Assembly (NCBI RefSeq): GCF_000003605.2 | Contig: NW_003113995.1 | Coordinates: forward strand, 1-22,185 | Source of the DNA: Saccoglossus kowalevskii | Lineage: Eukaryota > Hemichordata > Enteropneusta > Harrimaniidae | Direction of reading: 5' to 3' | DNA: 22,185 bases | Shown: positions 1,577 through 22,185 of the stretch, one piece after another | Layout: the number at the start of each line of letters is the position of its first letter | Numbering within the stretch: the stretch's first letter is position 1 | Position numbers and translations under genes: made by a program | The notes under the pieces: model-generated | The model's input: the letters and a program-made list of their open reading frames with translations, nothing else | What the model was told of the DNA's origin: nothing | Database searches by the model: none

Positions 1577-1610
1577 ATCAAATCATAGACCCTCAACAAA
1601 GGGATAGGAA
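1577..1610 (+). repeat. Left target duplication and TIR of the P-like element
   Basis: ATCAAAT at 1577-1583 is followed by the 27-bp terminal repeat at 1584-1610 (begins CATAGACCC, ends GATAGGAA). The repeat matches the inverted right end perfectly. Confidence 0.85.
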
Positions 1611-4001
1611 ACAACACGAGACAACAAAAGATGTTTATTAATCAAGTGTACGCTGTTGTTTTGCATACTAATTATCTTGTCGTGTGCTCGACATCCGGAT
1701 GACGTCATCAGCTGCGTGTACGTCGTGTCTCCTTATCAGTCTAGTCTCAGCACTACACCCTGTCGAACGCATTTACGCAAGCTCCGAAGTCTTTGTCAAC
1801 AACGCATTTTTCCTTTGGGTATTTATTCATATAAGGTACGTATTTGGTAGTGTTTGTACATCTAGTAATATGCTTGTTACGGGTTTGAATCAATATTTTG
1901 TGACGATGACAAAATCAATGTTATGTCACCCGAGGCATGTTCACTGTTTGACCCTGTTTGATATTCGATTGAAGGCATTGCGTTGTCCACCCATTTTTCT
2001 CCCATTCATGAGTTCGACATCAATAAAACTAAAATAAATGATTTCTGTATGTCCCCGTGCTCGCGTTGACATGCGGCATTATTACAAATGTCTGGCAATT
2101 TTCTGAAAAAAAAAACTACCGTCATTCTCCCTGGTGTCTCAATGTATACGGTGGTGTTTTATTTCGATCGCCATTTTGACCGTCGATGCGACATATATGT
2201 TTGTCCACCCATTTGTTCCACAATCACCGACGTGACGCCTATAAAATTGATCAAAAATATTTATTAGGTGTTTGCGGTCGCATTAATAGGTGGTATTTTG
2301 GTAAATAATGTGTAACCTTTCATAATAATGACATAAATTAGCGACCGTGTGCTGACTTCCGCCATCGCCATGTTTATTTACTATTTGACATGATTTGAGA
2401 CGTTGCGTTGTCCATCCATGGTCAAATTATTTTTCAAAATTACAAAAAAAATGTCACAAATAAAATCCACATCCAATTTTTCAAATTGTGATCAAGTAAC
2501 AGGAAATTATGTCCATTTGGTTCAAAATTATCAAATATTAAGTTGATACACCAAAATAGAGGCGGGTAAAATTATGTCACTCAAAAGGTTCAGTCTGAAT
2601 TTCTTGCCTGAATTACAGTGAATTCATTTCTTGATGTTACGAAGCATCTATTGTCACAACCTAGTGTGAAGTTTGTGTTGTCTGAGCGTTTTAACCAGGA
2701 ACCACTGGAATCCTACTTCGGCAACCAGCGTCAAATGAAAGGGGGGAAATGAGGCTCCATCTGTACTTCAGTTTGGGCAGACTGCCAATGTGTTGAGAAT
2801 GAAAAGTTCAAACCAACTACGCGTTCATTGCAGTAATGTCCAAGGATCAGTGGGCAATGCTGACATAGACTGCATCCCACTCCCAAAACAGCGGCGGTAT
2901 GCAAAATAAGCATTAGTTTTGTGCTTTTGAGATGGAGTCATGTAAACAATTATTGGATGTACATGAACTTTGTCTGTACATGTGAATTAGGGTGGTATTT
3001 ATTTACAAGTGATTTTCTGAAATGGTGCTGATATTTGTACATTTATTTATTACAACAAATTTTTGCTCGGTCATTTGTACTTGCCGTCAGGTTTTTTATT
3101 TCAATGGGAGGCGGTGACTTTTGCTCTTATATTTTTCATGGACAAAATCACTTATTTTCATCTACATTTCAATGTAACAACCTGTCTGAAACCGTCAAAC
3201 CAATCGTCAGTGTACAGTTAGCACCTATGACAAGATCCAGTGTGTTTGGCTTTTAGGGGACCAAAAATTGTTGTTGCAGATTTGGAATCATGAACATTGA
3301 TCGTATGCCAAATGTATAATGATTGCCCACGTTCGTGCAGAGTCAAATAGAGAGGCGACTCCAAAAGGTCTAATGAGCATATCTAGACTTACAAGCACCT
3401 TTATGGACATCTTGTATGCTGGTTTCCATTATAAAAGTAATGAGCATTGTAAAATACTTTTGTTGGCAAGAAAATTAGCCAATTTTATCTAACTGTTAAA
3501 CTTATGTGTGTTCATTTCTTCACTTAGAATTTAAAACACAAGTTGTTAGCAACACAAACATTTATTCATAAAACAACATGTACAGACCAGGTATCTATAT
3601 GCAGTGTACCGGTAGATACAATAGAAGAGCACAAAACATTTAAAAAAAATTATATACACAGATCAGGAAAATAAGACTTATTTTGGCCATAGACTAACCA
3701 GTCACTATATAAGCGCATGTGCTACTAATAGAGCAAATGCAGTATTTTGAAAATGACGCATGTAGCTATTTAGCATGATCTCGTTCTCGCGAAACCCCGT
3801 AAATCGTGAGAATTGACCTAATTACCATAATCGCATTCGGGATTTTGCGAGATTTTTCGTGACCAGACGATGAGTTTATTAGTTAGTTTATTTGCGTTGT
3901 ACACCGTTATGTAAACTCGCACTAATATGTTTTTAATTATGCAAAGCAACATCGTACAAAGAAAATAGCCTTGCTTCCTATCCCTTTGTTGAGGGTCTAT
4001 G
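1584..4001 (+). mobile_element. Degenerate P-element/THAP9-like DNA transposon
   Basis: This 2418-bp element has matching ends. Both carry a 27-bp terminal inverted repeat with one mismatch-free core, starting CATAGACCCTC and ending GGGATAGGAA (1584-1610 and, inverted, 3975-4001). Just outside, the 7-bp word ATCAAAT is directly repeated at 1577-1583 and 4002-4008, as expected for a target-site duplication. A second, subterminal inverted repeat of 21 bp lies at 1647-1667 and 3938-3958 with 19 of 21 matches. Inside, 2619-2909 encodes the C-terminal part of a P-element/THAP9 type transposase, in the same orientation as the left end. P elements are known for TIRs starting CA, 7-8 bp duplications and subterminal inverted repeats, so all signals agree. 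The N-terminal THAP zinc finger and most of the catalytic region were not found. The copy is therefore probably internally deleted and immobile. Confidence 0.82.
2619..2909 (+). pseudogene. P-element/THAP9-like transposase, C-terminal remnant, frameshifted
   Basis: The exon follows a plausible acceptor (TTACAG, ending at 2618). The first segment reads NSFLDVTKHL then LSERFNQEPLESYFGNQRQ, up to the G-rich run at 2741-2746. The motif N/Q-Q-E/D-P-L-E-x-Y/F-F-G-x-Q/I-R followed by a glycine pair is the hallmark of the C-terminal region in P-element and THAP9 transposases. After GGGGGG the frame meets TGA at 2750. Shifting by one base at 2747 restores the expected continuation, NEAPSVLQF, corresponding to the usual N-x-x-P-x-V-x-x-F. 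That frame runs on to a TAA at 2907-2909. The single-base shift disables the gene. No upstream THAP or catalytic exons were recognised, so only a small terminal part of a transposase is present. Confidence 0.78.
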
Positions 4002-4008
4002 ATCAAAT
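3975..4008 (-). repeat. Right TIR and target duplication of the P-like element
   Basis: The inverted 27-bp repeat occupies 3975-4001 and ends in GGGTCTATG. ATCAAAT follows immediately at 4002-4008, identical to the left duplication. The subterminal copy is at 3938-3958. Confidence 0.85.
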
Positions 4009-6626
4009 ATAATTGCGCCACAAGTCATAGACGCCACAGCATTATATCGATGTACTACTTTTAGTGAATATTTAAAAAAAAATGTATATTTGCGTTGTGT
4101 GCCAGGTGCAGCGTAGAAACAAAGGCAAATATTTATTGCGACAGTTACTGCTACAATAGCAGTGGTCAGATTGAGAGTGGGGTTTACGCACGTCCATTAC
4201 CCTCGATGAAAATCCGCTATTCAACGGGTAAAGTAATTACATATGGGTATTGAATAGTTTCGTCTTTCCACTAAATATATTTATTTATTTTACACACCTC
4301 TGCTCTGAGAAATATGTACACATAACTATTAATATGTCGTTTTTCTACGTTACGTATTGAATTAATAAGGCCGATTGAGTATTTATTATGATTGAATAAT
4401 TGTGCATGTTGTTGTATCGAGAAAGTGAGAAATACCATTATAATATGATTCGTATTACAATATAAATGTAGTCTTAACAGCAAACATGACAGTGTTTGTT
4501 TGGTGAAATACTGAAAACACTACTTATCTGACGCATTATTCCATCCATGAGAGTCAATAGCGGTCAGAGAATGAGGTATTACTAAACCACAATGTCTACT
4601 AAAGCTATTGCTTGAGGCAAATGCATGGAGCACATTATATCAAAAGGCGATAGTGATAATCCCATAACAAAGGAAAGGCTTATTGCATAGAATTCGTGCT
4701 ACAACATAGCTTCCAACTTTGCTAACAATTTTGGTGTAAAGCTGTTCCATTATGACACCGCATTAATGTAATCATAATGTTTTGTCCAATTATTTTAAAA
4801 ATTATATTTAGGAATTATACTAATTTCAATATATTTCACGGTTTCAGCAAAAAACGTGCGATATATAGCCGCATTAACCTGAAAAATCATTTCAAATTCT
4901 CTCAACCTCAACTTTCCCGCACGTAGAAATGAGATTTTTCGCGGATTGTGAAAATTCTACAGTTTAAATTGACTTCAAAATTTCTATGGTAAACTAACTG
5001 TAATCGGTATTCATTGACATTCGTGGACAACTCAAAACTACACAAACATAATCAATGATCATGCGGTGACAGAAACTACATTAACTTAATACGACCATTG
5101 CACTTCACTGTCACCGCAATGTTGTTTCGTATACCAAGACAGCATCCTGACAGGGGCTACTTTTCTGTCTTGTCTACATCCATATATGAATTATTTTGCA
5201 ATGATAATAATGTAATTCAAAATATTCTGAAGATTAGAGGATCCAGTAATGATAATATCATTTGTCAACTGTAAATGCATGTTACTAGTTTTATTCCACC
5301 AATCGTTTTTATTAGCCCAAATAAAACGAAAAACAATGCTTTCCATTTGTTATACATAATTATTTGGGACATGTAATAAATTGGCGGGAACCATGAAGAC
5401 AATATTAGTTTTGGCATCCTTGCTATCTTAGTTCCTGTTAAGCGCGATCGTTATGTGATGAGAACTGGTCAGATCAAAATAACATGAAAGGAGAAGTGAA
5501 AATAATACCGAGAATTGAATATGAGTAGAAATTATATCTTCTTCTCAATTTGTTCCAACTATGCGCTACTCCAAGCTGGAGTTATCATGTAACCGGGAAG
5601 GTGTTTTTTTACTTTGTCGAAATACTTTGGCTATATTTGTAAAAAAATTATATTATTCAATTACGATTCGTTGTAAGTATTTGTATATTGGACACCCAAG
5701 AGCAAATGTAACATGGTAGGTTGATCTGACCATGAACTACTGGGCTATATTTGTAACAGAAAATTATTTTGAATGTTATTTGTGACGTCACAGATCCGAA
5801 CTGCGCGTGTCCATATACTCACTGTAAGTGAGCATTAACAAAACGCCAATTGCATTGTTTACTAGTATATTGTTGTATTTTTGGGCAGTGCGTTATAGTG
5901 TATGGGGGACGTGTCTGCTTATACATTGATGAGACGCGTCACATGTTTCGAGTTGATATTATCGAAGCCAAGTATTTCAACAATCGTTCCGTTTAATTGT
6001 TAATTAGAACCAATTAATTATTAATAGTGTTATATTATGCCGAAATTATTTAAATAAACTGTCACACAAAAGATCGAATTAATCCTATTGTTTAAACAAA
6101 AAATAAAATAGGACACTAGGTTGGAAATCAAATACACTAAACAAGATTAATTCAAATAATTCGCTAAAAATGTGTAACAATAATTAAAGTGTAACAATAA
6201 TTTAGATAGAAACTTTTTCCTTTTATAGTATACTAAACATTATCACGTCATTCGTTTACACTCTTCTATAGAGTGGATCACAGTGTCAAAATACAATTAC
6301 CATGTTCCTTCAATAATTTGTATTCTATCATGTAATTCGAGAATAGTTCTTTTTGAATTATTGAAATTGATTAGATGTAGTTGGCTAATTATGACGCCCG
6401 AAGTCGCCTGTAGCAAATTCCGGTATGGCGGTTGTGCACTATGGGAATGTTATTTTGCAGTGACAAGTACACCTGGAATAAGATAATTTCCCTAATTTCT
6501 GTATGTCAATTACACACAAGTGTCACTATACCAATATCAGTATATCGCGCATTTATTCCCATGAAGGCAGGGAGGCTCATCTTATCACTTATAATCTGCT
6601 ATCTCTGTTTTCATGCGTTGTTACAG
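4009..6626. other. Non-coding region between transposon and pseudogene
   Basis: No gene is supported. A weak C-rich stretch at about 6390-6480 (VACSKFRYGGCALWEC) looks faintly like an eroded EGF module, but it lacks several cysteines and clear splice sites. Near 5630-5750 the phrase GGCTATATTTGTAA is repeated. The rest is AT-rich sequence without recognisable structure. Confidence 0.5.
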
Positions 6627-6747
6627 ATGAAACAGCTCAGCCAGCAACCCGTGTTACAGCATGTGTTTTCTATAATGACGACGCCTGTACCAGTAATTCT
6701 GACATTTTTTGTTTATGTATTAGCGGTTAGGCGGGATTGTGCAATCG
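6627..6747 (+). pseudogene. EGF1-like pseudo-exon
   Basis: An acceptor (GTTGTTACAG) precedes an open stretch in phase 1 containing ETAQPATRVTAC and later ACTSNSDIFCLCISG. It aligns with the intact EGF1 exon at 13943-14074, which has the same TAC before the second cysteine and a C-x-C pair. The tyrosine of the usual G-Y-x-G turn is replaced by TAG at 6728-6730. The first cysteine is missing, and the possible donor (GGTAGTT) is out of the expected phase. Confidence 0.6.
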
Positions 6748-6870
6748 GTAGTTTACTCCGTGTCAGGACAAATAATTCGAAAGTTCAAATGAGTGCTGAT
6801 ACATCGTTTTACGGAAATCTAGTTTTCGATGCTAGATGTGTAATAATACAATCACATTTCGAATTTTCAG

Positions 6871-6984
6871 AGGTAAATGAATTTGAATCTGACCCATGTC
6901 TACACGCTGGCATCTGTGAAGACTAATTACATGCGTACACATGCAGTTGACCAGATGGTTTTGATGGGCTTAATTGTGAACATG
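6871..6984 (+). pseudogene. Calcium-type EGF pseudo-exon with two stops
   Basis: The exon is flanked by TTTTCAG and GTAATA. It is exactly 114 nt in phase 1-1, the same length and phase as the intact EGF2 and EGF3 exons. It reads VNEFESDPCLHAGICED, stop, LHAYTCS, stop, PDGFDGLNCEH. The first EGF cysteine has become phenylalanine (TTT, 6882-6884). TAA sits at 6924-6926. The fifth cysteine is replaced by TGA at 6948-6950, one base from TGC or TGT. The V-N-E start resembles EGF3 (VDEC). Confidence 0.78.
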
Positions 6985-7709
6985 GTAATATACTTCTTTT
7001 GTGTTCTCATGTTCAAGATATAATTATCAAGCATGGAATTTTAAGTTGTCATTCTGTAAGTTGTCATTTACATATGTCATTTGCGTAATTGTGTATAAAC
7101 AAACAATTCACTCACATTACAATTTGCTAAGATACCTCATATAAACAGACAAATGACAGACACACACAAGAGATTTTATCTTTTTTAGATTAACTATGCG
7201 GCAGGGGTGGGATGGGACACTACTGTAGACTCCAATTGCCGTGCCAACATAGACTCTGTTCTGGTTTTGGCAACATAGCGAGCCCAACATGTGGGTTCCG
7301 AGCAACAAAGGCAAAATCGTGAAAAGCGTGAAAAGCTGTGCATTTACAGAAAGTTCAGATGCTTAAGAAATTTATCACATTCTGGTGACCAGAAGCACCC
7401 CCAAAACAAACGCTGCAAGGAGGAATATAGCTTCAGCAGTTCTGTTCCATTTTTTCCAGGTCCTTTGTCGCTTTTATAATAGTTTATAATAACTCGAAGA
7501 ACATTTTCTATATTGAAGTTGCCACACTTTTAATTCAAACTCAAATCGCATCGATGATTGCAGGCTTCTATCTTGTTTGAGCATTTATATTCTTATCGCC
7601 TCATTATCGCTGTTGTTTCCGTCTAAAACTATTACGACTAAACTAGCTCGAAAACACAGTAATCGTTACTGCTACTACCAGTTTGGGGATAATGCTTTTC
7701 TTTTCTAAG
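6985..7709. other. Intron-like spacer in the pseudogene
   Basis: This lies between the EGF and FTP pseudo-exons. I see no coding signal; the open frames present are short, and there are no lectin or EGF motifs. Confidence 0.4.
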
Positions 7710-7866
7710 ACATCCTTAGCCGTTCACGGCAGCATCATGGAGAGAGTGGAGCAAATCTTAATTTAATTGATGATATATTGTTTAACACTCTGACCACTGG
7801 TGGTAACTTTCTGACCCGTTTGTCTTCCACTTACTAAAACTTCTTACTACTGAAACTGGTGGGAAA
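7710..7866 (+). pseudogene. Possible first FTP pseudo-exon
   Basis: A strong pyrimidine-rich acceptor (CTTTTCTTTTCTAAG) is followed in phase 1 by a segment reading DILSRSRQHHGE then ANLNLIDDIL. This can be aligned with VSQSST and [10 protein letters not shown] of the intact exon at 15823-16029. A TGGTGG near 7798, followed by GACC, resembles the PWW-x-x-DL core but is in a shifted frame. The segment ends at GTGAGT. It is 157 nt against 207 nt in the intact exon, so it carries deletions. The match is weak on its own and is supported mainly by order and splice phase. Confidence 0.35.
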
Positions 7867-9217
7867 GTGAGTTTTGGGTTATTTGCCACAATAGTTCATG
7901 TCAAGTGGTGTCTTCCGCGTGTAATCTAACTATATTAATCGCCGAACCTTTTACAGCAAATAGAGGTACTCATGTTTAAGCACAATGACGACTGTGAAGA
8001 GTTTCTAAAATATAAATACGCCAAAACGTACTTTCACAGTGTTGTGATACAAATGAGTGTTTCAGAGAGATTGTTGTATAGACCAGTCACAGACAAAAGG
8101 GACACATTAAAATAAATTATATAAACAAAAAGATATGCAAAATGCCAAAAATCTACCAAACAAAACAAATAAAATAATGGTAAGTTAAATTATGAAAATA
8201 ATATATATTGTTACAATAAATTACCATTCCGAAACATGAAACACTAATGTAAAAAAAATCAGTCATGTGTGCAACATGCATCGCAATATGTACGCCAGGT
8301 TCCAATGCATTAATTAGCATACATCGCTGCACTTAAAACAGATCGCATGCCATAAACATCTGCTTGTAAGTACCATCCAATCAGTGACATTCAAATAGCA
8401 TGTCCGTTTTATTAGGCCGCGTACCAAAAGCACGTGCACATATATCATCCAATCAGTGGTCTCCACAAATTTATATACACATTCCATTGTCGTATGCACA
8501 TGCTCGTCCATTTTATTGGACGCAGCAGTAGGAACATCGCCCTCTTAAGGCAGCATCTTCTATAAGTTAGATGAAAATATTCAATAATACAGGTACCATA
8601 TACATATACATAAATATCAACGTTACCCACATTGTAATTGAAGTGTTCATATTCCAATAGTTATAAGCCGAAATTTAATTGAAAATGATAAAAATAAAAA
8701 CTACAAGAATTAACATCAAATTGTTACCTTTAATAGACAAGATTACTGTGGTAGGTCTTTATTTTCTATTTTTGCCGACACATATTAGTAAAGTTTGTTT
8801 ATTGTAAGGAGTTATATTTCATTCCTACGTGTTCAATTTGTAAGATTTTATTTACCCCTTACCAATATACCTAATCCCACTCTCACAGTCTAGTGGCCCT
8901 TCTCATAATTATTTTATAATCCCTTCTTCAGGACACGTTTAGTTATTTGGAATTGCATATTGTATTACATTTGGGAGGCTGTAATTAGGTTTAGAGTTCG
9001 GCTTGGGTGGGGTTTTAAGGACCTCTTTACGTGCAATGAATAATGAAAGACTCAAGAGTACAACCAAAATGAGAAAAATATAGGAACACACCGAGTCTCT
9101 GGCTTACTCAAAATTAGTTGTAACAAATTATTTTTCAAACTTAAATTAGGTAATTTGCATAATAAATATCACTACATACAGCGCACGTCTCGTTCCATTT
9201 TATATTGCACCTGACAG
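7867..9217. other. Intron-like spacer with short duplications
   Basis: No coding exon was recognised. It contains the CCAAT-bearing irregular duplication at 8374-8527, annotated separately. The rest is AT-rich. Confidence 0.4.
8374..8527. repeat. Irregular direct duplication with CCAAT boxes
   Basis: CATCCAATCAGTG occurs at 8374-8386 and again at 8446-8458. A second pair resembling GTCCRTTTTATTRGRCGC occurs near 8401 and 8506. CCAATCA is the usual NF-Y core, and a TTTATATAC follows at about 8470. It could be an old regulatory duplication or simply a decayed repeat; no transcript downstream was found. Confidence 0.4.
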
Positions 9218-9345
9218 ATTTATAAATGCTGTAGTTCTGGTTGACTATAAAGCACAATATGAGAACGCTGTCCAGTGTGGAGATGTCGTAAATGAACAAA
9301 GCGTTTAACTGTACAATGGTAACCAGAGGATATACTACTACTGCA
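9218..9345 (+). pseudogene. Second FTP pseudo-exon
   Basis: After an acceptor (CACCTGACAG) the sequence reads INAVVLVDYKAQYENAVQCG then DVVNEQSV, and stops at TAA (9306-9308). The intact exon at 16301-16513 has [20 protein letters not shown] followed by DIVDAQ, so the two are clearly homologous. Beyond the stop, nucleotide similarity continues through the equivalent of the [12 protein letters not shown] segment, with a few bases deleted. The end of the exon, which should carry LCEVEVY, is not recognisable. Confidence 0.72.
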
Positions 9346-9621
9346 GTACGTTTTCATTGAACAAATACCTTTTTGTGCACATAAATTAAAGTGCTGTATA
9401 AAACAACAGCATTTTATTGAAATTCCATGTTCGCAGCCATATTGCATTTTTTAGTGGTAATATTCTGTTATTGTATTGATATTGTAGCTAATGTATTACC
9501 GTAATATGATAGATCAATGCGAGTCTTCACAATTTCATTTCACATGACAGTTCAATAGTGAAAACCGTGAGCTTTTATCACCTTTATCAAATTGCAATCT
9601 TATCTACCCTTCTAATTTCAG

Positions 9622-9690
9622 GTGGACGTAGCAATTCTCGTAATTACGCTACGCACAAATTTCGAGTGAGTAAACAATAGTTGCAACTCA
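9622..9690 (+). pseudogene. Possible CTLD first pseudo-exon
   Basis: It follows the acceptor TCTAATTTCAG in phase 1. The reading SRNYATHKF can be placed against LRNEALTWN of the intact CTLD exon at 16711. The run ATAGTTGCA may correspond to TTAGTTGTCA, which holds the first CTLD cysteine. TAG interrupts the frame at about 9678. Support comes mainly from position after the FTP copy; similarity is weak. Confidence 0.28.
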
Positions 9691-10207
9691 GCAAACGGGG
9701 AACTAATAACTAATATTTCATGTATTTGTTTGTTCCAATAGATTGAGGCCATCGATGACAGTAATAAGTGATGAGCTGAAATATTATTTGGAGGATGTTG
9801 TCATGCATACGAGATGCCAACAATTTTGACTATGTTGCCTAGTGTTCGATCCATCCATCAAAACGCAAGACCGCGTACGAGTTAAATAACATTGAACGAA
9901 TAACTTTAATTGATCAAAGGGGGAAAAGGGATTAAATACAATCTGTTTACAAATCTAGGATTTTCTGTCCATTAATGAAGCATTTAACTGCTAGCGCACA
10001 ATGTATGAGAAAATTACAGAAAGAATGATTTCAGATTTTACTTAGCCTTTGAATAAACAATTACTGGAATGTACAATATGATTGCCTTAAATTACATATT
10101 CATGTACAGTACACAAAATTCATATAATGTAACGTGTAGCTTTGAAAAATACATTACAAAACTTCCAATAACGTAACGTAATTCCCAGTTATATAGTAGG
10201 TTATTAC
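9691..10207. other. Non-coding region before the assembly gap
   Basis: AT-rich, with no secure exon. A segment near 9780-9840 (TGTTGTCATGCATACGAG, then AACAATTTTGAC) has faint CTLD-like wording but no consistent frame. Confidence 0.35.
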
Positions 10208-10751
10208 NNNNNNNNNNNNNNNNNNNNNNNNNNNNNNNNNNNNNNNNNNNNNNNNNNNNNNNNNNNNNNNNNNNNNNNNNNNNNNNNNNNNNNNNNNNNN
10301 NNNNNNNNNNNNNNNNNNNNNNNNNNNNNNNNNNNNNNNNNNNNNNNNNNNNNNNNNNNNNNNNNNNNNNNNNNNNNNNNNNNNNNNNNNNNNNNNNNNN
10401 NNNNNNNNNNNNNNNNNNNNNNNNNNNNNNNNNNNNNNNNNNNNNNNNNNNNNNNNNNNNNNNNNNNNNNNNNNNNNNNNNNNNNNNNNNNNNNNNNNNN
10501 NNNNNNNNNNNNNNNNNNNNNNNNNNNNNNNNNNNNNNNNNNNNNNNNNNNNNNNNNNNNNNNNNNNNNNNNNNNNNNNNNNNNNNNNNNNNNNNNNNNN
10601 NNNNNNNNNNNNNNNNNNNNNNNNNNNNNNNNNNNNNNNNNNNNNNNNNNNNNNNNNNNNNNNNNNNNNNNNNNNNNNNNNNNNNNNNNNNNNNNNNNNN
10701 NNNNNNNNNNNNNNNNNNNNNNNNNNNNNNNNNNNNNNNNNNNNNNNNNNN
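10208..10751. other. Assembly gap (544 N)
   Basis: All bases are N, so any exon of the decayed copy lying here is invisible. Open frames running across the N run are artefacts. Confidence 0.99.
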
Positions 10752-12640
10752 ACAGCTGGGCGACCTGTCCTCAACCTAAGCCCTAACTAACTCTTTGTTT
10801 AAAACAATAGCATCTGAAGTGGTATACACTGCAGGTGACTAATTACCGATACTAGATTATAATGTGACAGATGTTACCACACAATTTTATTTGTTATATG
10901 GATTCGAGTTACCTTTACTAGATGAAGAATAATTCACTCAGCATTCCATTGTTACATTGCCACTAATCATATGTATCGTTGTTACATTAAACCGAAAATT
11001 ATACATAATATAATTATTATCAATTTTTTATACAATACTGTAACCCATTTTCCTACTGTTAATGTGCTTGTCATTGCTCGTCTATAACAAGTTCAGCTAT
11101 TAAATGCTAATTACAAATCAATGTTCATGACTAGCATTGGTATGTACGATTATTCTATAATGCTTTTTAAGTTTCATATTTGTATACATATGCATGTATG
11201 TATCCAATGGCCAGCAAATACACTGTTTATCAATGTATTATTACATTTTTAATTGCATTCTCTTTTCAATTATGAAGCTTAAGAACAAACTACCCTTATT
11301 TCATATTTCAATACATGATAGTCGAGGTGCCAGTTATAGTTATCTTTAATTGTAATAAAATGTTTAGTAAGTAGATATGCCAAAATTATGAACACTGCTA
11401 ATAATGTATTTCCACTGTACTATCCCAATTTGCAAGTCATTCAAAATCAACCCCAAGTGAACAAACCGACACAAATTATGTGAACACATGACCGAATGAC
11501 AGATTTGTTCACGTGGTAATTTGAAAAAATATAAAAAGAAATAGCAACACCATCTTCAGAGTGCGTGTTTCATGTAATATACAATATCCTGGTATCGGCT
11601 TACAAAATTGTATTGGGATGCTTACCGCCAATTCTATTTCCAGTAATGTATGCATGACAAACAAACAAACAAACGAATAAAACAGAGCCTCTTAAGGCGT
11701 ACTAAATTACAAACAAGTACAACCCCTATCAAAAAATACACATAACCACTCACATAATTATCCTCATAACTAACATCAACCACTGATTCATATGGAATAA
11801 ATATACTTTTATTTTCACAACGTTTATTATTATGCAAAGGACGAAATTAAATTAAGGGTGACAAGGTCAGTTAAATTATATCCCAACGAATGTAACAATT
11901 GTAAAGATGGTGATTTTACAAAACTGTAAGCCAAGCTTTAATTTATAATTTTTGGGGTGATTGGAAGTTATCGAAGGAGTAGCCGGTGTTAGTTAGTGCA
12001 AGTGACGCCCAGGACAAAACTCGAACCCAAAAAGCGAACAAACGCCCTTAAGAATGCCCTGATCAATAAGAGTCTAATTTGCAGGGAAATATTATTTTGA
12101 GTTCCCCAGTGGACATTTGTTATAAGAGGCAGGACTTTCAGGATAATTAGTAGTATCTCAGGAGCTATGAGAAGAATTAAAACAATTAATCATGTTTATG
12201 TATTTTTTATGCGCATTACGTAACATAACATCAATGTTTAAACTTGGTTCTCACATGACACAAGAAATTTCATTATTATTCAAAAATAAAGAGTTATAGT
12301 TTCTAAATATTTACAATGCAGGACAAGTAATATTAATGTTGGTTTGTTAATATTAATTATATATTTGCATTATAATTCCGTATATTCATGGCGAATACAC
12401 TCCAGAATCATAAGAATCCCGTTATTATTTTTGTTTTATTGATTGTTGCTATTTTGACTGAAAATTAAAATATAATAAAGACTGGCATGGTTTCCAAGAT
12501 GTCTTTCTGTTTACCTTTATACGATAATTACGCGAAGAACTTCTTCACTTTGTAAACGACCGCTCAAATAGCATTGTATGTAACCAACTATTACAGTATT
12601 TCACATATTCTTCCTGTTTAGGGCAGGCACCTGGAGTGGT
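10752..12640. other. Non-coding intergenic region
   Basis: This 1.9 kb of AT-rich DNA lies between the gap and the promoter of the main gene. It holds the inverted repeat at 11453-11516 and a short (ACAA)n run near 11657-11674. No exon with splice sites and a family motif was found on either strand. Confidence 0.5.
11453..11516. repeat. Imperfect hairpin-forming inverted repeat
   Basis: CCAAGTGAACAAA at 11453-11465 is matched in reverse complement by TTTGTTCACGTGG at 11504-11516, with 12 of 13 pairs and a spacer of about 38 bases. It could form a stem or be the remains of a small palindromic element. No target duplication was seen. Confidence 0.5.
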
Positions 12641-12672
12641 AGTGTGCTCGCCTATAGGCGGTGACAAACGCT

Positions 12673-12680
12673 TGACGTCA
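12673..12680. promoter_or_regulatory. Consensus CRE palindrome
   Basis: TGACGTCA is the full cAMP-response element, bound by CREB/ATF factors. It lies 90 bp upstream of the TATA box of the lectin gene, a usual position for a proximal element. The role is inferred. Confidence 0.45.
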
Positions 12681-12756
12681 TATGAAAGTGATTTCTCAGC
12701 CTGTGATAATTGGCGCCTAAAGTATGCGAATCGTGTTTTGTTTAGTAATATACCCT

Positions 12757-12770
12757 ATTGGTTATATAAA
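12757..12770 (+). promoter_or_regulatory. Inverted CCAAT plus TATA box
   Basis: ATTGG at 12757-12761 is followed at once by TATATAAA at 12763-12770. A start site about 30 bases on, near 12793-12800, would give a 5' leader of roughly 150 nt to the ATG at 12949. The tight spacing of CCAAT and TATA is unusual. Confidence 0.5.
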
Positions 12771-12948
12771 CTATGATCTTTCACGATCCCCTTTCTTTGG
12801 TAGCGCGCTAGAAGCGTTCCGAGCAAGTTGTCATCACGATACAAACAACAATTCAAACTTTTCAAGGGGAATTTGTATGTGGCACTTGGATTATAGATGT
12901 TTCACGTTCGTCACTGTGTCTGTTAGCTGAGGTATAAGACAGCATCAA

Positions 12949-12984
12949 ATGGAAAATTCTGTCGCCAAATCTGAGGGGAGCAAG
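12949..12984 (+). CDS. Exon 1: start and cytoplasmic tail
   Basis: This encodes [12 protein letters not shown] and ends before donor GTAGGA in phase 0. TGA at 12928-12930 closes the frame upstream, so this ATG is the first available. G at +4 fits a start context, although -3 is C. Confidence 0.65.
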
Positions 12985-15900
12985 GTAGGAACTACAACAA
13001 ATATGTAAATTCGTTAACTCATTAGATGTTTTCTTTTACTCGCACATGTACAAAATATGTCTTTATTTACTGGTAAGCAATATGCTAATATAGCTGTCGA
13101 CTGTATATCCGTTAGAAGGTCACCAATGGAAAGAAACTTCGCAGAGTTGCATTTGTATTGTTATCCGTGGCTGCAGCTACTGCTTTGCTGGCTACAGTTA
13201 CAACTACCGTATCTCTGTCTACCGGAGGCAAGCACGATGACAAGATGTGTAAGTAATGTGTATTTATTTAGTGTCATGGCACTGTCATATTAAATTAATT
13301 GTGTTATATACTAGCATATGGACGTGTTTTTTATTCCTCAGGGACGGAGTATATTTAGGGCAAACACTAATATTAGAGGCTATTAGTGTGTGCAAGTGTT
13401 ATAGTTGAGAATCACGTTTCACTTGACACTCACGCCGAATGTCCCGCTTCAGTTTTTTTTGGTATAAACAGCGGAATGTATGAAAAATTTACCAGTATTT
13501 TTTATGGCATTACTTTGTATATTTCTAATTTCTATATTAATAATAACTCACCAAATGTGTTTTAAATCCACATAAACGCGAGGCACCATTTCTGATTCTC
13601 CCAAACTCCCTCAAAAAATCAGTACAAGTCTAGTTGGCATTTCTCGCGCCTTGAGCAAAACCATGTTTTAAATTCACTGCTTTAATAATTGAGTTTCCAA
13701 TGTATCGTTGATGCCGAAGGTTACAAAAAAAACATATTATTTTATTGCTCGAGGATGAATAAATCTTGTTTCAGGAACGGCAATCGTTCAGACAAATGAG
13801 ACAGACGCTCCACGAATACCCGAATACGCGCTCTTAAATTACGAGATATTCTCTATATATTTCATCCAGCGAATGGTACATGTTATAATGCATTAAATAT
13901 AATGTTAGATTGTCTAAACATAAATATGTTATTTATTCACAGCGAAATTGGCGACAACAAAGAAACCCATGGAGTGCAACGCAACAGCGTGTCGCAATGG
14001 AGGTACTTGCTCTACTGGCGATACTGTCACGTGTATGTGTACTAATGGTTACACAGGAGAATACTGCGAGACCTGTAAGTGTAAGAACGATCATACCCCG
14101 AGCAATAGTATTGTGGTTTTTGACGCATTTCAAACTATCACATTACTTAATAGCCAGATTAAAATACGGCGATTAGCAGAGATTATTTGCCTTTCAGGAA
14201 GAAATGTTAAGCTGATAGCAGAGTTTGCTTTTCATACAGTTATACCAAAACAACTTCATGGATACATAAAGCCGAATAAAAACACAATTTGAAAAATATG
14301 TTTTGCGGGAACTCAGTGCTACCAGATACTGCGCTAACAATATGCGCATAGTGTACTCTGTCGTAAGGTGAATACATGGAATTTATACACACATTCCAAT
14401 TTAACGTGTAGTATAATATCTGATAAACACTTATTATAAATACAACAACAGACATTATTTCTCCAACAATACATCTACATTAGTCATTAGTTGTAGTCTA
14501 TACGGGTCATCGAGTATACAACTACGTGTTACTTACAGATCAGAACTATTGTGAACCCAACCTTTGTCAAAACGGTGTCGCGTGTGAAAACGCTATTGAA
14601 TCCTATACCTGCGATTGTGTGCCTGGTTTTCAAGGGATTAACTGTGAAACGGGTAAGTGGTGCGCATATTTGCATATTTGTATACCTTAAGAACAGAGCT
14701 CAATATGATTACAATGACATCATTTGCATGCCTTTCAGAATCGGAGGATTTTGTAATGCATACAAATCTACCCCCACAGATACAACGTTTTTACAGCTGC
14801 ATACAATATTTCCACTCAAAAATCTATACTTATCATCAACATAATAGACTTGAAATCGTTTATAAATTTCACTTACATAAAGTGCGTTATTATCATTCTA
14901 CAAAGATGTTGATGAATGCTCTTCACAACCATGTGAAAACGGCGGAACATGCAATGATACTCTGAATGGGTATACATGTGACTGTGTGACAGGAACCTAC
15001 GGCGACCACTGTGAAATAAGTGCGTAAATACTTATTTATTATCATGACCAATATTTTCTTTCAATTCAAATATTGATTGTATTAGAGAATAATAATTTAA
15101 ATATATCGAACCTGCATGCGGCAGACGGCCATAGTGTGTCATTGTTTAAAATCAATCGTCCACCCGTGAACCTTTGCGTTTTCAGCGCGCGTATTTATCG
15201 TCGGATTTCCGGTGACCCCTTCGCTTTAACTGAGTTGTTGATTGTAAATATGCAAATATACAACTTAATTAATCATCCACAGATCCAGACGACTGTGTTC
15301 ATGTTACTGACTGTTACGGAGGAATGTGTATAGACGGTTTTGACAGCTACACATGTGACTGCAATACAGGTAGGACATGGAAAATACTTGAAATATCTGT
15401 TACGTATTTGCAAATTAGGGAACCATATTTATTTGCAGTATGCATTGTCAGTAAATATCGGTACACGGAAAGTGCAAATATGTAAATCATACTTTAACTG
15501 TGGCTACCGCCTTGAGGAAAATTAAAATTGTGTCCTGCATATTCAACGTTTGTTTCGCAAATTTAAAGTTTTGGTGTGTGAATTTGAAATTTTCTCCCGC
15601 GAATTTAAATTTACACTTACACTCCTTTACGTCACATAGGGCGCTAGAGGACGTTAGAGATTTGTAATGTATGCCGGTATTGCATATCCTTGATTCCCAA
15701 TGCTAAAATAAAACAGTCAAGGTCACTGCTGTTGTCGTGCCAACCATTTGTATAGCGACATTATTAACTTAAATTTACAAAACTATGTTTACATCATCTA
15801 ACATTTTTTTGTTCCCTTTTAGACGTGTCAAATGTTGTGTATCAAAAACTTGTTAGTCAAAGTTCAACACAGATAGAACGTGAGGCAGTAAACGCTATTG

Positions 15901-18900
15901 ACGGCATTCTCACTCTTAGTGATGCGTGTACGCACACTGCCGAAGAGTATGAACCGTGGTGGCAGATTGACCTATTCGAGATTCACTGCATTCATAACGT
16001 CATTATCACTAATCGCCACGATTGCTATCGTAAGTTCCCATATTTGTCTTTTTCAAAAGTTTATCATTGCGAATCTAGGCAAATGAACAAGTCGAATTCC
16101 ACAAATGTCAAACTCCCGTGTCCTCCGCTAATAACGGCATAAGATAATTGTCAGACCTGTGGATACACTGCACAAGCTCTGGTGGAATGTTCTAACATTC
16201 ATTACAAAATAGCAACAGACATATTCAATATATTTGTTATATATTTGTTTTATAAATTATATATATGTCTGAAATTATTGACTATAAAATTACGTTTCAG
16301 GAGAATGGTTGGAAAACGCCGTGGTTCTGGTTGGCTATACAGCACAACGTGATGACACTGTTCAATGTGGTGATATTGTGGATGCACAACGCGCTTCACA
16401 GGAAAGTGTTGAGTTTACATGTGAAATGGGAACGAGAGGAAGATATGTAACTGTTATGTTACAGGAAACTACACACTTTCTGTCACTCTGCGAGGTGGAG
16501 GTATATGCACCAGGTAATCTGTGTGTGTTACTCAGATTATGTTGCCATATGTTTAAACGATTGTTTAAATGATTGTTTAAACGATGATATGTGTCTTTAA
16601 TCTGGCTGCTCCTTGGGGATATATTTCCACCATACATTGATCTAATTTTCTTATAAGTTTAAAATGTTGTGAAACTAAATCCAATATCTATATATTGTGG
16701 CAACATTTAGCTCGCAGAAGATTTGAACTGCGTAATGAAGCTCTTACATGGAACCAAGCTAATGTTAGTTGTCATGACATTGGAGCGCATTTGGCAAAGA
16801 TCAGAAGTATAGAAGAAAATAACTATCTAGTACAGCTTATTGAGCAATATGACATTCGCGGTGAGTGGGAATATTTTGCGCAAGTGCAAATGTTTTTTTC
16901 TTCTGTTTGTGAGTTCTTTGCATGTAAAAATCCATCTATCCTCGGAGCGAACACCTGGGTATTTTTACCACCTGGCAACCATCACGGTGAAATTAAAGAC
17001 CGGAACTCCTAGAAAACTGTACCTCAGACAGTTGTTGTGACTCTACTAAACAGTGTAACAAGATTACTTCTACGTGTACAAGATATATAAATTTAGTTGC
17101 CCAGGATTACTTCAAAGTTGAGTTTGTGCTTTTTTCCCAACTTTACATGTTTTTTTTACGCGTTCCTATGCAGCACTCATATACTTAATGGTACAGTGTT
17201 GCTTGTCTTAGCAACGTAGAATATACGTAGGATATGACCTTTTTATAACTAAGAACATACCTTATTCGTAAATGACCGTCGATATCTCGCTGAGTATTCT
17301 AGAGTAACGTTTAGTTGTGTGTATGCCAATTTCACTATGACTACCCAGCTGGTTCTAAAAAGAAAAGTAAAGAAACTCCGAACGCTCAAGTTGGATGACC
17401 CGGTCAAAATTGACATGGAAAACCTCACCATGCAAAAATTGATCCTTGGTCAAATCCCACCTACTTGTTCTATAATAAATTTATATTCAAGAAAGTCTGT
17501 CGTTTTGGGTAGACAATACAGTATAAACGAGTATTTTCCCACAATTCCGGCGAGGTATGTAATGAAAATGGTGCGACTGTAATTCTTGTATTACGTTTTA
17601 CTTTATTAGTCAGGAGTGAGCGTACATATCAGTTTTCAAAAATCTTGCTCAATCCAGGTCAACCTGTCATATCTATGTACCACCCTGGCCAGCGATGTAA
17701 TCAAACTATTAAAACACTGCTGCAAAAATCACATTTGCCATATGTGAAGAAGTGATGATAACATTTTACAACCATGAAGTATGTAACCTCTGGCCCCTAC
17801 AACGAGTCCAAATATAATATAAAATATTGAGGTGGTATGTTCAGACTTCTGAGATGTACATTCAACCTGATGTGATTAAACCCACACAAAAAGGCAAAAC
17901 ATCAAATCTGACTTAACAAAGCCTTTAAAGTTTTTATGAAGCTTGAGGAAAAAATATTGACTAAACACAAATAAATTGAAAGAATCCTTTGATTCAAATA
18001 TCTTCAACGATTTGATTTGGGTTGCATTGTTCATTGTGCATTGTTTATGATGGTTTCTTTTCTTTTCCGGATTCATGGTTACTGTAATGACATTGTATTC
18101 TCAGATTATTGATTACACAATGTATACGTTTGGACTGCCTAACTCACAGCGTAATTTGCAGTTTTCACAATATTTGAGGTTTTGTGTATATTATGATACC
18201 AGCGATGGAATCGATAGTGAAATTAACCTGAAAACAACCAAACATCATCCAGGAATTGTCTGTTGTCAATTGTCTGTCAAACTACGTACAAGAGAGTTTG
18301 CTACAGAAGATCGAGAGGTAGTACTTTTAGGGAACTATATATATTAACAAACATTCCCGCGTTGGTTGGTTGGGTGGGTGAGTGAGCAGGATGTGCTTAT
18401 TTTTTTTTTGAAACACCTGACATCACTTCATGGCTGTCTGATTTGATGTCTATATGTCATTCTTTCAATGACTTGTCTTTGTTTGTGTCTCTTGTCCAGC
18501 GTGATTTGTTTATGGACTTGTACTTCTGCCAGTTAAACATATGATTTGAATTTTGGATTGGTATAATTGTTATTTCTATTTAGCAAACATGTAAACATAT
18601 GACGTCATGATGCAGAGAACTATAGTGTTCTTTCTTTCCCATTATCGAATTTGCTATTCCTCTTATATAGTTCCGGTGAACAGTTGACATGATGACAGTA
18701 GAAAATATAACAATATAGCTAATTGGTAGCAAAAACAAATCGCCCTCTCGCTGGCGGACGTTTGCAAAACAAGTACAACTATGAACTTATATCATCTATG
18801 ATTTTCTTGCTTTAATTGCTTAAAGTGATTCATTTATTAGTATTTTGTCTGTACCCACTCTCATATTTATAATTTAAGAGGTTAGTACTAAAGTGCTTTG

Positions 18901-21834
18901 TTACTAGGAGCCTGGTGGACCGGAGTTAATGATATCCGAACTGAAGGTCATTATGTATATGCAGATGGCACTCCTCTTGTGTTTACCAATTGGAGGCAGT
19001 ATCCACGTGAACCGAGTGATGCTAATCACGAAGACTGTGCAATGGCAATGTAAGTGGCACTTCTTTTCAACAACTGTGTGATTTGTATGTGCATATCTGT
19101 CAATGTCATATGGCACAATATTTAAATGTTGGTTATTTACTCCCGTCAATAACACACAATCGGAGTCGTTAATACAGTTAATGCATCTGTATGTACGTAT
19201 GTGTGTGTGCGTTTGTGTGTGCGCGTGTTTGTCTTATCAACGTTGTGAAGACTTTCATTTAAGTTTACACATACCAAGTGACGACCCGAATTTAAGTCAA
19301 GTTTGCGTAGCGTGGGGTTAGTAAAGTGTGATTGAATGTACCATACCGATCCTTTTTACTAATCCTAGGCTTTGCAAAAATTTCTATGTTAAATCACAGG
19401 ATGTATGATTGTATTTCTACTTTGTTGCATTTTTATTTAATTGAGCTAAAATGGAAACTTAATTAACTTAATTGAGTTTTATTTAAAATCGCATTAAAAT
19501 TAAATCGCAATTCTGTATAGAATCGCGTTTTAAGGTAGAGATGCAGGTTCGTGGGCACTTGGGAGTGCATTTTTTGTTTTTGCTTTTTATTATCCAAACA
19601 ATCTTGGCTATAGACTGTTTACATTTTGTAAAATTGTGAATAGTGGAACATACTCAAAAAACGATTTTAAAATATAAATAACAGGTTCAAACATTCTCGC
19701 TTTCGAATGCTTAGCAAGATTTAGCAAGGCTGTACATAAATAATAACAAAGAAACATGGTGAAAAGAAAAGAAATGACGGGATCCCATATTATTCACTAT
19801 ATTTAACTTTTAACAAAAAGATAGTACATTTAAATTTGGAACTGTTACAATCATTTTCATTATAAGATTTAGCAAACTTCTTACTAAGTGAATTGTTATG
19901 CAAATTAGTAATTATCTCAGATTCTTTTTAGTGTACATCCCAGAACTTTGAAAAAATAGCTCCTAGACGCTTTGGCATTTTGTTTTGTAATTTTCACAAA
20001 TGATTGACAATGTGTTTATCTTCAAAACGCCGTTGGGGCATTGTTTTTGGTTGAACAGTGTTACAACAATCGTACAGACAACTAGCCTGGATGTTAATTT
20101 ATGCATAAACTTGAAGTAGTGAAATTTGGGCTGCTGCCCTGCAAATTTGACAACTGGTAGACAGTTTTTGAGACGGCACTTTCTTCATAGTAAACAGATG
20201 TACCCATAAACCAATTTTGACAAGAAACAGAAGCATGGTTTAGGAGCTAATTTTTTTTAAATCACTTTTGACCAAATAAGCACATTTTTTGTGCATATTT
20301 CAAACTACAGTGTCCATAAAAAATACTAACACAATTTTAAAATTCATACAATAAGCTTTCCAAAAATATATAGTTTTGTGGACAAGGGAGGTCTTGGTTT
20401 CCAAATTAACTAATTAAAATACCTGTCAGGTAAACTGCATCTCTACCTTAATCAAAAGATATCGCAACTATATATTAAAAAGTTAATACAATGCGTGTCG
20501 TCACAACAATGCTAAGACGTGTAAGTGCGTGTGTTTGTTTGTCTGACTGTCTGTTTCACTTTTATCTAAAGAACCATATGTAGTTTTTCGATGAAACTTT
20601 ATGAATTGATGGCCTGAGCTAATGCACAGATTTAATTAGGTTTTGGTTGAAATTCACGCATATTAATGACCTAATTTGCATGATAATTAGCTAAGGTTTA
20701 AAGTTTAGCTGTTCCATGACTGTTCCACTGATATCTAAAGAACCTCTCATTGAATGTAGATGAAACTTGGTACATAGATGCCCTGGACTAATGGACAGAT
20801 ATGATTACTTTTGGGTAAATATCCATGCACATCAATTACCGGATTTGCTAATGATTAGTCTGCGGCTTTGTCACTTATATCTCGAGTACTAATCATCACA
20901 TTTCAATGACACTTTGTACATGTCATATGTCATAATACAGTGCACAGACCTGATAGGTTTTGGGTTAATATACATGTATATTAATTACTTATTTTGCATA
21001 ATTGCAGCTTTTTTGCTGATATTTCAAATACTAATCATTTCTATAAACCTTGGTACATATATACTCTATTATTCCCATACCTTATTAGTGCATATTAATC
21101 ACCATATTTACATAATTAGCAAGTTTTTGGCTTTATACGAATATGTGAAGTACATTACTCATTTCAATGGAACTTAGTACATAGATTGCCAAAATACGCA
21201 AACCTACTTACATTTCAATTATACTAGGTTCATAGATGGTATGTGACATTGTGCAGACGTTTTTAGTTTTACAATAAATCTGTTCATATTAATTACCTGA
21301 TTTGCATACTATTTAGTCAGTTTTTAGCTTGTCCATCAGTATCTTAAGTACTAATCTTATTTCAATGAATTTGGTACATATATACTATAAGACAATATGA
21401 CGATATAATTTAGTTTGGTTTTATATACATTTGTTATAATCACCTAATTTGCATAATAATTTACATTTCCGCTTTCAAGGAATATTCATCACATTGTAAT
21501 CAAATTTGGTACCTGTATCGAACAATATTAGCTGCCAATCTTTTTGCTTGAAAAACTAATCTTAAATTTCAAATTGTCAATACTCTTAGGACACAGAAGT
21601 TCTTTCTGAGCTTTCTTTGTATTTATCTGTTCATGGTACAATTACCGCGTCTGAATATCTCTTTGTAATTTTATTCGGCACAAATATTTACATGTTGATT
21701 GCTTTTCACAATATTATCAATATTGCAGCAAATGTGTAACTATAATTTCACATGTATTCCGTATTTTATCAAATTCATGGTATATTATTTGTAATATTAT
21801 TTCTTTCAGCAAAGATCTAGTACGTAGCCTGTAG
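12949..21834 (+). CDS. Type II membrane receptor: EGF x4, FTP (fucolectin) and C-type lectin domains (multi-exon)
   Basis: This gene is assembled from splice sites and phase: 12949-12984, 13116-13248, 13943-14074, 14539-14652, 14906-15019, 15283-15369, 15823-16029, 16301-16513, 16711-16860, 18908-19049 and 21810-21834. The predicted product has 450 residues: cytoplasmic tail 1-22, membrane helix about 23-46, EGF modules 66-100, 101-138, 139-176 and 177-205, FTP domain 206-345, and CTLD from 346. There is no cleavable signal; the basic KKLRR before the helix indicates N-in topology, with both lectin modules outside. The start is supported by an in-frame TGA at 12928-12930. All junctions from exon 2 to exon 9 are phase 1. 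The role is probably glycan recognition at the cell surface, perhaps in immunity; that is inference. The CTLD end is broken by a frame problem in the last exon. Individual domains are certain; the exact join order is very likely, but no transcript confirms it. Confidence 0.78.
13116..13248 (+). CDS. Exon 2: signal-anchor transmembrane helix
   Basis: The acceptor CCGTTAG and donor GTAAGT give phase 0 to phase 1. The exon reads [10 protein letters not shown], then a hydrophobic span [18 protein letters not shown], then a polar [16 protein letters not shown]. Positive charge before the helix and none after it predicts a type II anchor. The sequence is also open in another frame, which has no meaning. 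Confidence 0.75.
13249..13942 (+). other. Intron 2
   Basis: This 694-base intron begins GTAAGT and ends TTATTCACAG. No further exon or repeat of note was seen inside. Confidence 0.7.
13943..14074 (+). CDS. Exon 3: EGF-like domain 1
   Basis: It is 132 nt in phase 1-1, from acceptor ATTTATTCACAG to donor GTAAGT. After a short linker ([10 protein letters not shown]) it has all six EGF cysteines: [22 protein letters not shown] and TNGYTGEYC. It lacks the calcium-binding D-x-D-E start. NAT is a glycosylation sequon. A decayed relative lies at 6627-6747. Confidence 0.88.
14075..14538 (+). other. Intron 3
   Basis: This 464-base intron begins GTAAGT and ends ACTTACAG. No exon-like content was recognised. 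Confidence 0.75.
14539..14652 (+). CDS. Exon 4: EGF-like domain 2
   Basis: It is 114 nt in phase 1-1. It reads [20 protein letters not shown] then [17 protein letters not shown], with six cysteines in EGF spacing. The C-x-N-x4-Y-x-C-x-C stretch fits the Asp/Asn beta-hydroxylation consensus. Confidence 0.9.
14906..15019 (+). CDS. Exon 5: calcium-binding EGF domain 3
   Basis: It is 114 nt in phase 1-1, from acceptor TCTACAAAG to donor GTGCGT. It reads [16 protein letters not shown] then [20 protein letters not shown]. The D-V-D-E-C start and the C-N-D-x4-Y-T-C-D-C segment are the standard calcium-binding EGF signature. NDT is a sequon. Confidence 0.92.
15283..15369 (+). CDS. Exon 6: truncated EGF domain 4
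   Basis: It is 87 nt in phase 1-1, from acceptor CATCCACAG to donor GTAGGA. It reads [16 protein letters not shown] then [14 protein letters not shown]. Five of the six EGF cysteines are present. The exon ends where the G-x-x-G-x-x-C tail should follow, so the sixth cysteine is missing. A 12-nt candidate micro-exon at 15439-15450 could add one cysteine but with unusual spacing. Confidence 0.82.
15370..15822 (+). other. Intron 6
   Basis: This 453-base intron begins GTAGGA and ends in a T-rich tract before TTTTAG. It contains the possible micro-exon at 15439-15450 and the AAATTT-rich repeats at 15553-15612. Confidence 0.6.
15553..15612. repeat. Imperfect AAATTT-type short repeats
   Basis: Three similar units, GCAAATTTAAAG, GTGAATTTGAAATTTT and GCGAATTTAAATTT, follow one another inside intron 6. 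They look like a fragment of a dispersed AT-rich repeat. Confidence 0.4.
15823..16029 (+). CDS. Exon 7: FTP (fucolectin-like) domain, first half
   Basis: It is 207 nt in phase 1-1, from acceptor TTCCCTTTTAG to donor GTAAGT. Landmarks in order are [39 protein letters not shown] and [10 protein letters not shown]. These match the F-lectin/tachylectin-4 fold: QSST, A-x-D-G, C-x-H-T, PWW-x-x-DL, ITNR-x-DC. The His of CTHT and the Arg of NR are known fucose contacts. An extra cysteine lies in FEIHCIHNV. The second cysteine of the family's adjacent pair is Tyr. Confidence 0.9.
16301..16513 (+). CDS. Exon 8: FTP domain, second half
   Basis: It is 213 nt in phase 1-1, from acceptor TTACGTTTCAG to donor GTAATC. 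It reads [15 protein letters not shown], then [22 protein letters not shown] and [11 protein letters not shown]. The C-G, GRYV-x-V and LCEVEVY blocks are typical of the end of FTP domains. Where the family usually has Arg before Leu (DCC-x-x-RL), this protein has Trp (DCYREWL). A decayed relative lies at 9218-9345. Confidence 0.9.
16551..16586. repeat. Three tandem 12-bp units
   Basis: GTTTAAACGATT, GTTTAAATGATT and GTTTAAACGATG follow one another in intron 8, framed by CATAT and ATATG. Two units contain the palindrome GTTTAAAC. Confidence 0.7.
16711..16860 (+). CDS. Exon 9: C-type lectin domain, first part
   Basis: It is 150 nt in phase 1-1, from acceptor CAACATTTAG to donor GTGAGT. It reads [20 protein letters not shown], then [19 protein letters not shown]. 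The TW-x-x-A-x-x-x-C, G-x-x-LA-x-I and EEN-x-x-L blocks define the CTLD start. No cysteine precedes the helix, so this is a short-form domain. NVS is a sequon. Confidence 0.88.
16861..18907 (+). other. Intron 9
   Basis: This 2.05 kb intron runs from GTGAGT to TTTGTTACTAG. Open frames near 17319-17582 and 18075-18347 are not recognisable proteins and lack splice support. A small GGCG-type hairpin (CGCCCTCTCGCTGGCG) lies near 18742-18757, possibly part of a short dispersed repeat. Confidence 0.65.
18908..19049 (+). CDS. Exon 10: C-type lectin domain, sugar-binding loop
   Basis: It is 142 nt, from phase 1 to phase 2, between TTACTAG and donor GTAAGT. It reads [20 protein letters not shown], then [20 protein letters not shown] and EDCAMA. 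WTG-x-ND, DGTPL-x-FTNW and EDC are canonical. EPS occupies the place of the EPN (mannose) or QPD (galactose) calcium motif. The domain is unfinished here; the WND strand and last two cysteines should follow. Confidence 0.9.
19199..19230. repeat. GT-rich microsatellite
   Basis: An interrupted (GT)n/(GC) run. It is low-complexity sequence within intron 10. Confidence 0.7.
19534..20447. mobile_element. Non-autonomous DNA transposon with TTAA target duplication
   Basis: GGTAGAGATGCAG at 19534-19546 is repeated in inverted form at 20435-20447. TTAA lies immediately outside both ends (19530-19533 and 20448-20451). The 914-bp interior is AT-rich with no transposase. TTAA duplications are typical of piggyBac and Kolobok families. 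The GG start does not fit the CC-starting piggyBac ends and leans toward Kolobok; the assignment is tentative. Confidence 0.7.
20566..21535. repeat. Degenerate tandem array, unit about 150 bp
   Basis: The landmark TTAATTACCTGATTTGCATA recurs in varied form at about 20662, 20832, 20981, 21094, 21289 and 21438. A second landmark, ATTTCAATGAAACTTGGTAC with ACATAGATG, recurs between them, often after ATATCTNAAGTACTAATCAT. Spacing varies from 113 to 195 bp because of indels. The array lies in the last intron. Open frames within it are by-products. Confidence 0.75.
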
Positions 21835-21871
21835 CAACACTTTTAAATTTATTTGTGAATATGACAACTAG
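21810..21871 (+). pseudogene. Exon 11: CTLD terminal exon, frame broken
   Basis: The acceptor TTATTTCTTTCAG (ends 21809) is strong. Joined to exon 10 in phase it gives A-I-K-D-L-V-R-S-L and TAG at 21832-21834. In a different frame, 21821-21871 reads [16 protein letters not shown] and stop. C-x(5-7)-F-I-C-E is the standard CTLD end with cysteines three and four. The W-N-D calcium motif is absent. A small deletion or assembly error between 21817 and 21823 would explain both frames. An acceptor at 21834 is also in phase but would skip the third cysteine. Confidence 0.65.
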
Positions 21872-22185
21872 TTGTATAAAAGGACATGGTAACATACGTG
21901 TGAAGACATATTGCACAATCAGTTGAATATGCTATATTTGATACAGTCTTTTTCAACAATGTCGATTACTATTAAAAGTGTGTATAATCTATCTCACGCA
22001 CTTGAATTGTACTATACGTTACAATGAATTTTATGATATGATAAGCAGTCACATATATAGCATGAGATAAAACACGCTTTGAATATATGGAATTTCTGTT
22101 CTGAGACAGGTTCGCGGACTTGGTGTCGTTTTTTTTAGATATGTTTTAGAAACCCAGATTTTAATAAGTATGTATTCATCAGCTA
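21872..22185. other. 3' flank of the lectin gene
   Basis: This would hold the 3' UTR. No AATAAA was seen within it. The last 50 bases resemble the start of the window. Confidence 0.4.

Follow-up and report, generated by a model that had tools for sequence, protein, structure and literature searches.

The 22,185-nt window of Saccoglossus kowalevskii contig NW_003113995.1 analysed here contains what we read as a single member of a tandem duplication of an animal mosaic lectin-like gene. We take it to be, most probably (about 0.55), a pseudogene of recent origin or a truncated variant that lacks classical dual sugar binding. This reading rests on the degenerate state of the two sugar sites and on a C-type lectin domain (CTLD) whose tail lies out of frame. 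The product would be membrane-bound or secreted, with a hydrophobic N-terminal segment followed by an EGF stalk, an FTP domain and a C-terminal CTLD.

Ten exons on the + strand (12949–19049), joined at GT-AG introns, encode a stop-free product of 441 residues, and phase 1-1 is kept throughout from the EGF1 exon to the exon for CTLD part 1. A preliminary description of this locus had carried the phase-compatible run of exons on to 21871. The ten exons do form one open frame, but an end at 21871 needs an acceptor ending at 21834, which loses the third CTLD cysteine. The joins between modules are predicted from phase and order, and the assembled frame supports a putative mosaic in which a hydrophobic segment is followed by EGF, FTP and CTLD modules. 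The features of the gene are as follows.

12949–12984, + strand: exon 1, 12 residues from the start codon on, ending in phase 0; join with exon 2 predicted from phase
13119–13248, + strand: exon 2, KKLRR and then ~22 hydrophobic residues (19-residue mean 2.25), phase 0 in and 1 out
13943–14074, + strand: EGF1 exon, six Cys, phase 1-1 (joined frame, Pfam)
14539–14652, + strand: EGF2 exon, six Cys, phase 1-1 (joined frame, Pfam)
14906–15019, + strand: EGF3 exon, six Cys, DVDEC start, phase 1-1 (joined frame, Pfam)
15283–15369, + strand: EGF4 exon, short, five Cys, phase 1-1 (joined frame)
15823–16029, + strand: FTP part 1 exon, His and first Arg of the fucose motif kept (Pfam, PDB alignment)
16301–16513, + strand: FTP part 2 exon, Trp at the last basic position of the fucose motif (PDB alignment)
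16711–16860, + strand: CTLD part 1 exon (Pfam, PDB relatives)
18908–19049, + strand: CTLD part 2 exon, EPS for EPN, phase 2 out (Pfam, PDB relatives)
21810–21871, + strand: probable terminal CTLD exon, tail out of frame with the CTLD part 2 exon, no WND

An additional candidate exon near 13780, between exon 2 and EGF1, was left out because it would read into a stop at the phase-1 join. Upstream of the first ATG, the nearest in-frame stop is at 12928. A TATA-box-like sequence at 12763–12768 (+ strand), 186 nt 5′ of that ATG, is a possible core promoter, a consensus match being no proof of function. At the other end, an ATTAAA occurs at 21971, 100 nt 3′ of the stop at 21871.

The top hydrophobic 19-mer of exon 2 has a Kyte-Doolittle mean of 2.25, and no later exon exceeds 0.81. 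A signal anchor (type II, as in the preliminary description) and a long signal peptide would each account for this segment, the two being indistinguishable here. A domain search of the spliced product, proposed in the preliminary description, returned the EGF, F5_F8_type_C_2 and Lectin_C families above their cut-offs, the CTLD being only partly covered. The EGF family matches three stretches (5.9e-18). The six-cysteine EGF modules described earlier hold for three of the four EGF exons, and EGF4 has five cysteines. The EGF4 exon measures 87 nt versus 114 nt in EGF2 and EGF3 (27 nt shorter); its sixth cysteine is absent, leaving an odd one.

The FTP domain is complete, as first described: it matches the Pfam family F5_F8_type_C_2 (3.3e-13, above the cut-off) over profile positions 1–91 of 91. 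Taken singly, part 1 scores 35.6 bits against this family and the FTP part 2 exon finds no Pfam match to it; in the joined protein the score is 50.5 bits. The join between the two halves is supported because they score higher joined than singly. Among PDB sequences, the closest relatives are FBP32 of striped bass (3.4e-38) and the eel agglutinin 1k12 (6.7e-17), both F-type lectins, and the domain belongs to the F-type lectins by its homology to them; seven sequences match at E ≤ 1, the last of which (0.83) is chance-like. PMC5297725 writes the fucose motif of this family as HX(26)RXDX(4)R/K; PMC5712786 has HX24RXDX4(R or K). Counted by eye, the S. kowalevskii motif is incomplete, with the His, the 26-residue gap, the Arg, X and the Asp kept and the last basic residue replaced by Trp. 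Likewise, the vicinal Cys pair reads Cys-Tyr, its second Cys replaced by Tyr, whereas the eel lectin has Arg at the last basic position and an intact Cys pair. The F-type cation motif, h2DGx with N, D or S at position x in PMC5712786, corresponds to AIDGI in the spliced sequence, whose terminal Ile departs from it.

The CTLD of the ten-exon product matches Pfam Lectin_C at 9.1e-13 (49.3 bits versus a cut-off of 22.6) over profile positions 2–84 of 107, the last 23 positions being missing. A CTLD is thus present as originally proposed, but it is partial in the open frame and its tail is out of frame. The two halves reach 27.7 and 21.0 bits singly, 49.3 bits in the joined protein and 51.8 bits when joined alone; the join between them is supported because the halves score higher joined than singly. 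The best 60 of 191 PDB matches at E ≤ 1 include LY75, members of the mannose receptor family and DC-SIGN. In C-type lectins, EPN and QPD are the mannose and galactose motifs, and variant motifs exist (PMC5379193, accessible part). The S. kowalevskii domain has EPS in the CTLD part 2 exon where EPN is expected, and contains neither EPN nor QPD. The pattern W[NDE]D with a Cys 1–3 residues on is absent from all six frames of the window; a looser W.D with a Cys 2–3 residues on occurs four times in the six frames, none of them in the terminal exon. Canonical sugar binding has presumably been lost in both the FTP domain and the CTLD. The dual-specificity recognition receptor of the preliminary description is at odds with these findings: the fucose motif is without its last basic residue, the CTLD is without EPN, QPD and WND-Cys, and the CTLD end is either out of frame or dependent on a later acceptor.

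The break lies at the end of the CTLD. A recognisable tail at 21821–21871 has its own frame, which is not continuous with the CTLD part 2 exon and has a stop immediately 5′. Within it, a CTLD-like 10-residue tail at 21830 is the sole six-frame match to C-x(5,6)-[FYW]-[LIVM]-C-[EQKRD]. Splicing to an acceptor ending at 21809 gives ...CAMAIKDLVRSL, eight residues followed by a stop at 21832–21834, and would yield a protein without the last two CTLD cysteines. The four conserved CTLD cysteines do not occur in one open frame, and the acceptor ending at 21834 regains the fourth only. With no tail the joined halves score 51.8 bits against Lectin_C; the joins at 21834 and 21809 reach 52.4 and 52.3 bits, respectively, and are not separated by this score. 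The out-of-frame tail, placed after a seven-X spacer, raises the score to 62.2 bits over profile positions 2–106 of 107. Behind an identical spacer, nine control tails taken from the same stretch (of 66 available; the five Cys-richest of 35 with Cys and four random ones from 31 without) gave 51.7–52.7 bits. The tail is probably a real terminal exon because this gain is absent in the control tails. A Pfam search of six frames of 12600–22185 found no terminal CTLD exon elsewhere downstream, and the tail itself was not detected as a separate exon. We also observed a pair of direct repeats of ~143 bases (20548–20690 and 20717–20858, 71% identical, no TRF array) 5′ of the terminal exon.

Upstream of the gene, two pieces in the same order and on the same strand resemble its own exons and carry in-frame stops.

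6870–6980, + strand: decayed EGF exon with two in-frame stops (tblastn E 1.1e-7 to EGF3; Pfam E 1.2)
9225–9377, + strand: decayed FTP part 2 exon with one in-frame stop (tblastn E 9.4e-8 to FTP part 2; no Pfam match)

Both rest on similarity to the gene's own exons, in tblastn within the window with no composition correction and no masking. The same search returned no significant CTLD match upstream in the window (best E 0.12). These pieces suggest that the EGF and FTP modules are parts of a single gene that was duplicated, and that the family is eroding. An assembly gap of 544 N (10208–10751) separates the decayed pieces from the gene. Further upstream lies an inverted repeat of 33 bases (1582–1614 and 3971–4003, 2.4 kb apart, 97% identical) whose arms resemble DNA-transposon termini. 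Pfam found a transposase in none of the six frames of this 1582–4003 element; a stretch near 2680–2900 resembles a P-element/THAP-type transposase. One scan for related loci in viral contigs confirmed none.

The end of the CTLD can be explained either by a frame-broken copy, by splicing at a later acceptor, or by an assembly error. Splicing of a working gene at the acceptor ending at 21834, with a CTLD lacking the third Cys and the WND loop, has in its favour that the join yields INTFKFICEYDN and a stop at 21871, leaving the frame open. The 14 nucleotides before this acceptor include seven pyrimidines, a count shared by two accepted acceptors (FTP part 2, CTLD part 1). This weakens the case against the later acceptor. 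On the other hand, 7/14 is close to the 6.98 averaged by 981 AGs on the + strand, and the acceptor ending at 21809 has 10/14. Four AGs fall within the 40 nt before 21834, the most upstream one ending at 21809, versus none before 21809, although the accepted CTLD part 2 exon is likewise preceded by four. The gain in Lectin_C score (0.6 bits versus 0.5 with the other join) is negligible, and the join leaves the second Cys unpaired. Overall, the acceptor evidence leans towards 21809 without settling the choice, and we consider a working gene spliced at 21834 unlikely. We give somewhat more weight, still well below that of the pseudogene or truncated variant, to a break that stems from an assembly or sequencing error or from a rare allele. 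The gene would then encode a complete EGF-FTP-CTLD membrane receptor for ligands other than canonical fucose or mannose. Ten open GT-AG exons with matching phases, the ATTAAA 100 nt past the stop at 21871, and an imperfect assembly, seen in the 544-base run of N at 10208–10751, agree with such an error or allele; the incomplete fucose motif, the missing WND-Cys, EPS for EPN, the short EGF4 and the decayed pieces upstream speak against it.

It is improbable that two or three distinct genes or exon clusters (for example, EGF-FTP and CTLD) have been taken as one. The joins between FTP and CTLD and between exon 2 and EGF1 do rest on phase and order, and the decayed pieces upstream are EGF and FTP only, with no significant CTLD match, but the spliced frame is stop-free with matching phases, and pairs of EGF, FTP and CTLD modules are joined in known proteins, as far as the accessible descriptions go. 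We also doubt that the locus encodes a working, compact EGF-FTP-CTLD receptor without CCP, from a tandem and fast-changing family with non-canonical ligands, whose CTLD tail is a real splice variant. The pseudogene or truncated variant itself has to accommodate several observations. All ten exons are open, as they would not be in a long-dead pseudogene; the frame break could stem from misassembly or from allelic variation; and the acceptor ending at 21834, with pyrimidines no lower than at two accepted acceptors, would still leave an open frame. In addition, a first-order Markov null built on 19050–22185 produced at least one + strand match to the tail pattern in 107 of 2000 runs, the upstream FTP piece is without Pfam support, and the EGF piece has a Pfam E of 1.2.

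The novelty claimed in the preliminary description is weaker than supposed. In Drosophila, CG9095 and furrowed unite an FTLD with a CTLD, CCP modules and a membrane segment; Hydra pairs the FTLD with a CTLD, and Nematostella has it alongside CCP and EGF (PMC5712786). In C. elegans, too, an FTLD is coupled to a CTLD (PMC5297725). The proteins of Hydra, C. elegans and Nematostella, as described there, have subsets of the EGF, FTP and CTLD set. Tribolium TcCTL15 combines FA58C, eleven CCP, a CRD and a membrane region (PMC9954269), the Drosophila membrane protein Uninflatable has EGF repeats, one CLECT, two FA58C, CUB, CCP and HYR (PMC3340373), insect CTL-X lectins list F5/8 type C and EGF among their extra domains (PMC10341621), and rotifers have a single EGF ahead of the CTLD (PMC8878817). 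As predicted for the S. kowalevskii gene, furrowed, CG9095 and TcCTL15 (CTL-X or selectin-like) place an F-type or FA58C domain and a CTLD in one membrane protein, and CG9095, too, is without canonical binding residues in either lectin domain (PMC5712786). They differ in their CCP modules: Pfam found no CCP in six frames of 12600–22185 and three + frames of 2700–12601, exons beyond the window falling outside this scope. Thus, the combination of multiple CCP, CTLD and FTLD that marks a furrowed-type selectin (CTL-X) does not occur in the window stretches scanned. Conversely, the S. kowalevskii gene has EGF modules ahead of its lectin modules, whereas the available descriptions of furrowed, CG9095 and TcCTL15 name no EGF. 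Uninflatable, a membrane protein, likewise unites EGF, CLECT and FA58C, with additional CUB, CCP and HYR, a comparison that follows the FA58C label and not the FTP type. The accessible portions of PMC12867482, PMC9334734 and PMC5094078 describe no matching architecture. The EGF-FTP-CTLD order without CCP was not found described in the literature searched, which includes few subscription papers.

We therefore read the gene as a degenerate representative of an already known class of mosaic lectins. By analogy with furrowed-type proteins, its intact relatives may carry an FTP jelly roll and a CTLD atop an EGF stalk and serve in recognition or adhesion. The EGF-FTP-CTLD order would add one arrangement to the known set and opens no new mechanism. 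Shuffling of phase 1-1 lectin and EGF exons builds invertebrate immune and adhesion genes. The S. kowalevskii locus would present one such shuffled lectin and EGF exon arrangement together with the decay of neighbouring copies.
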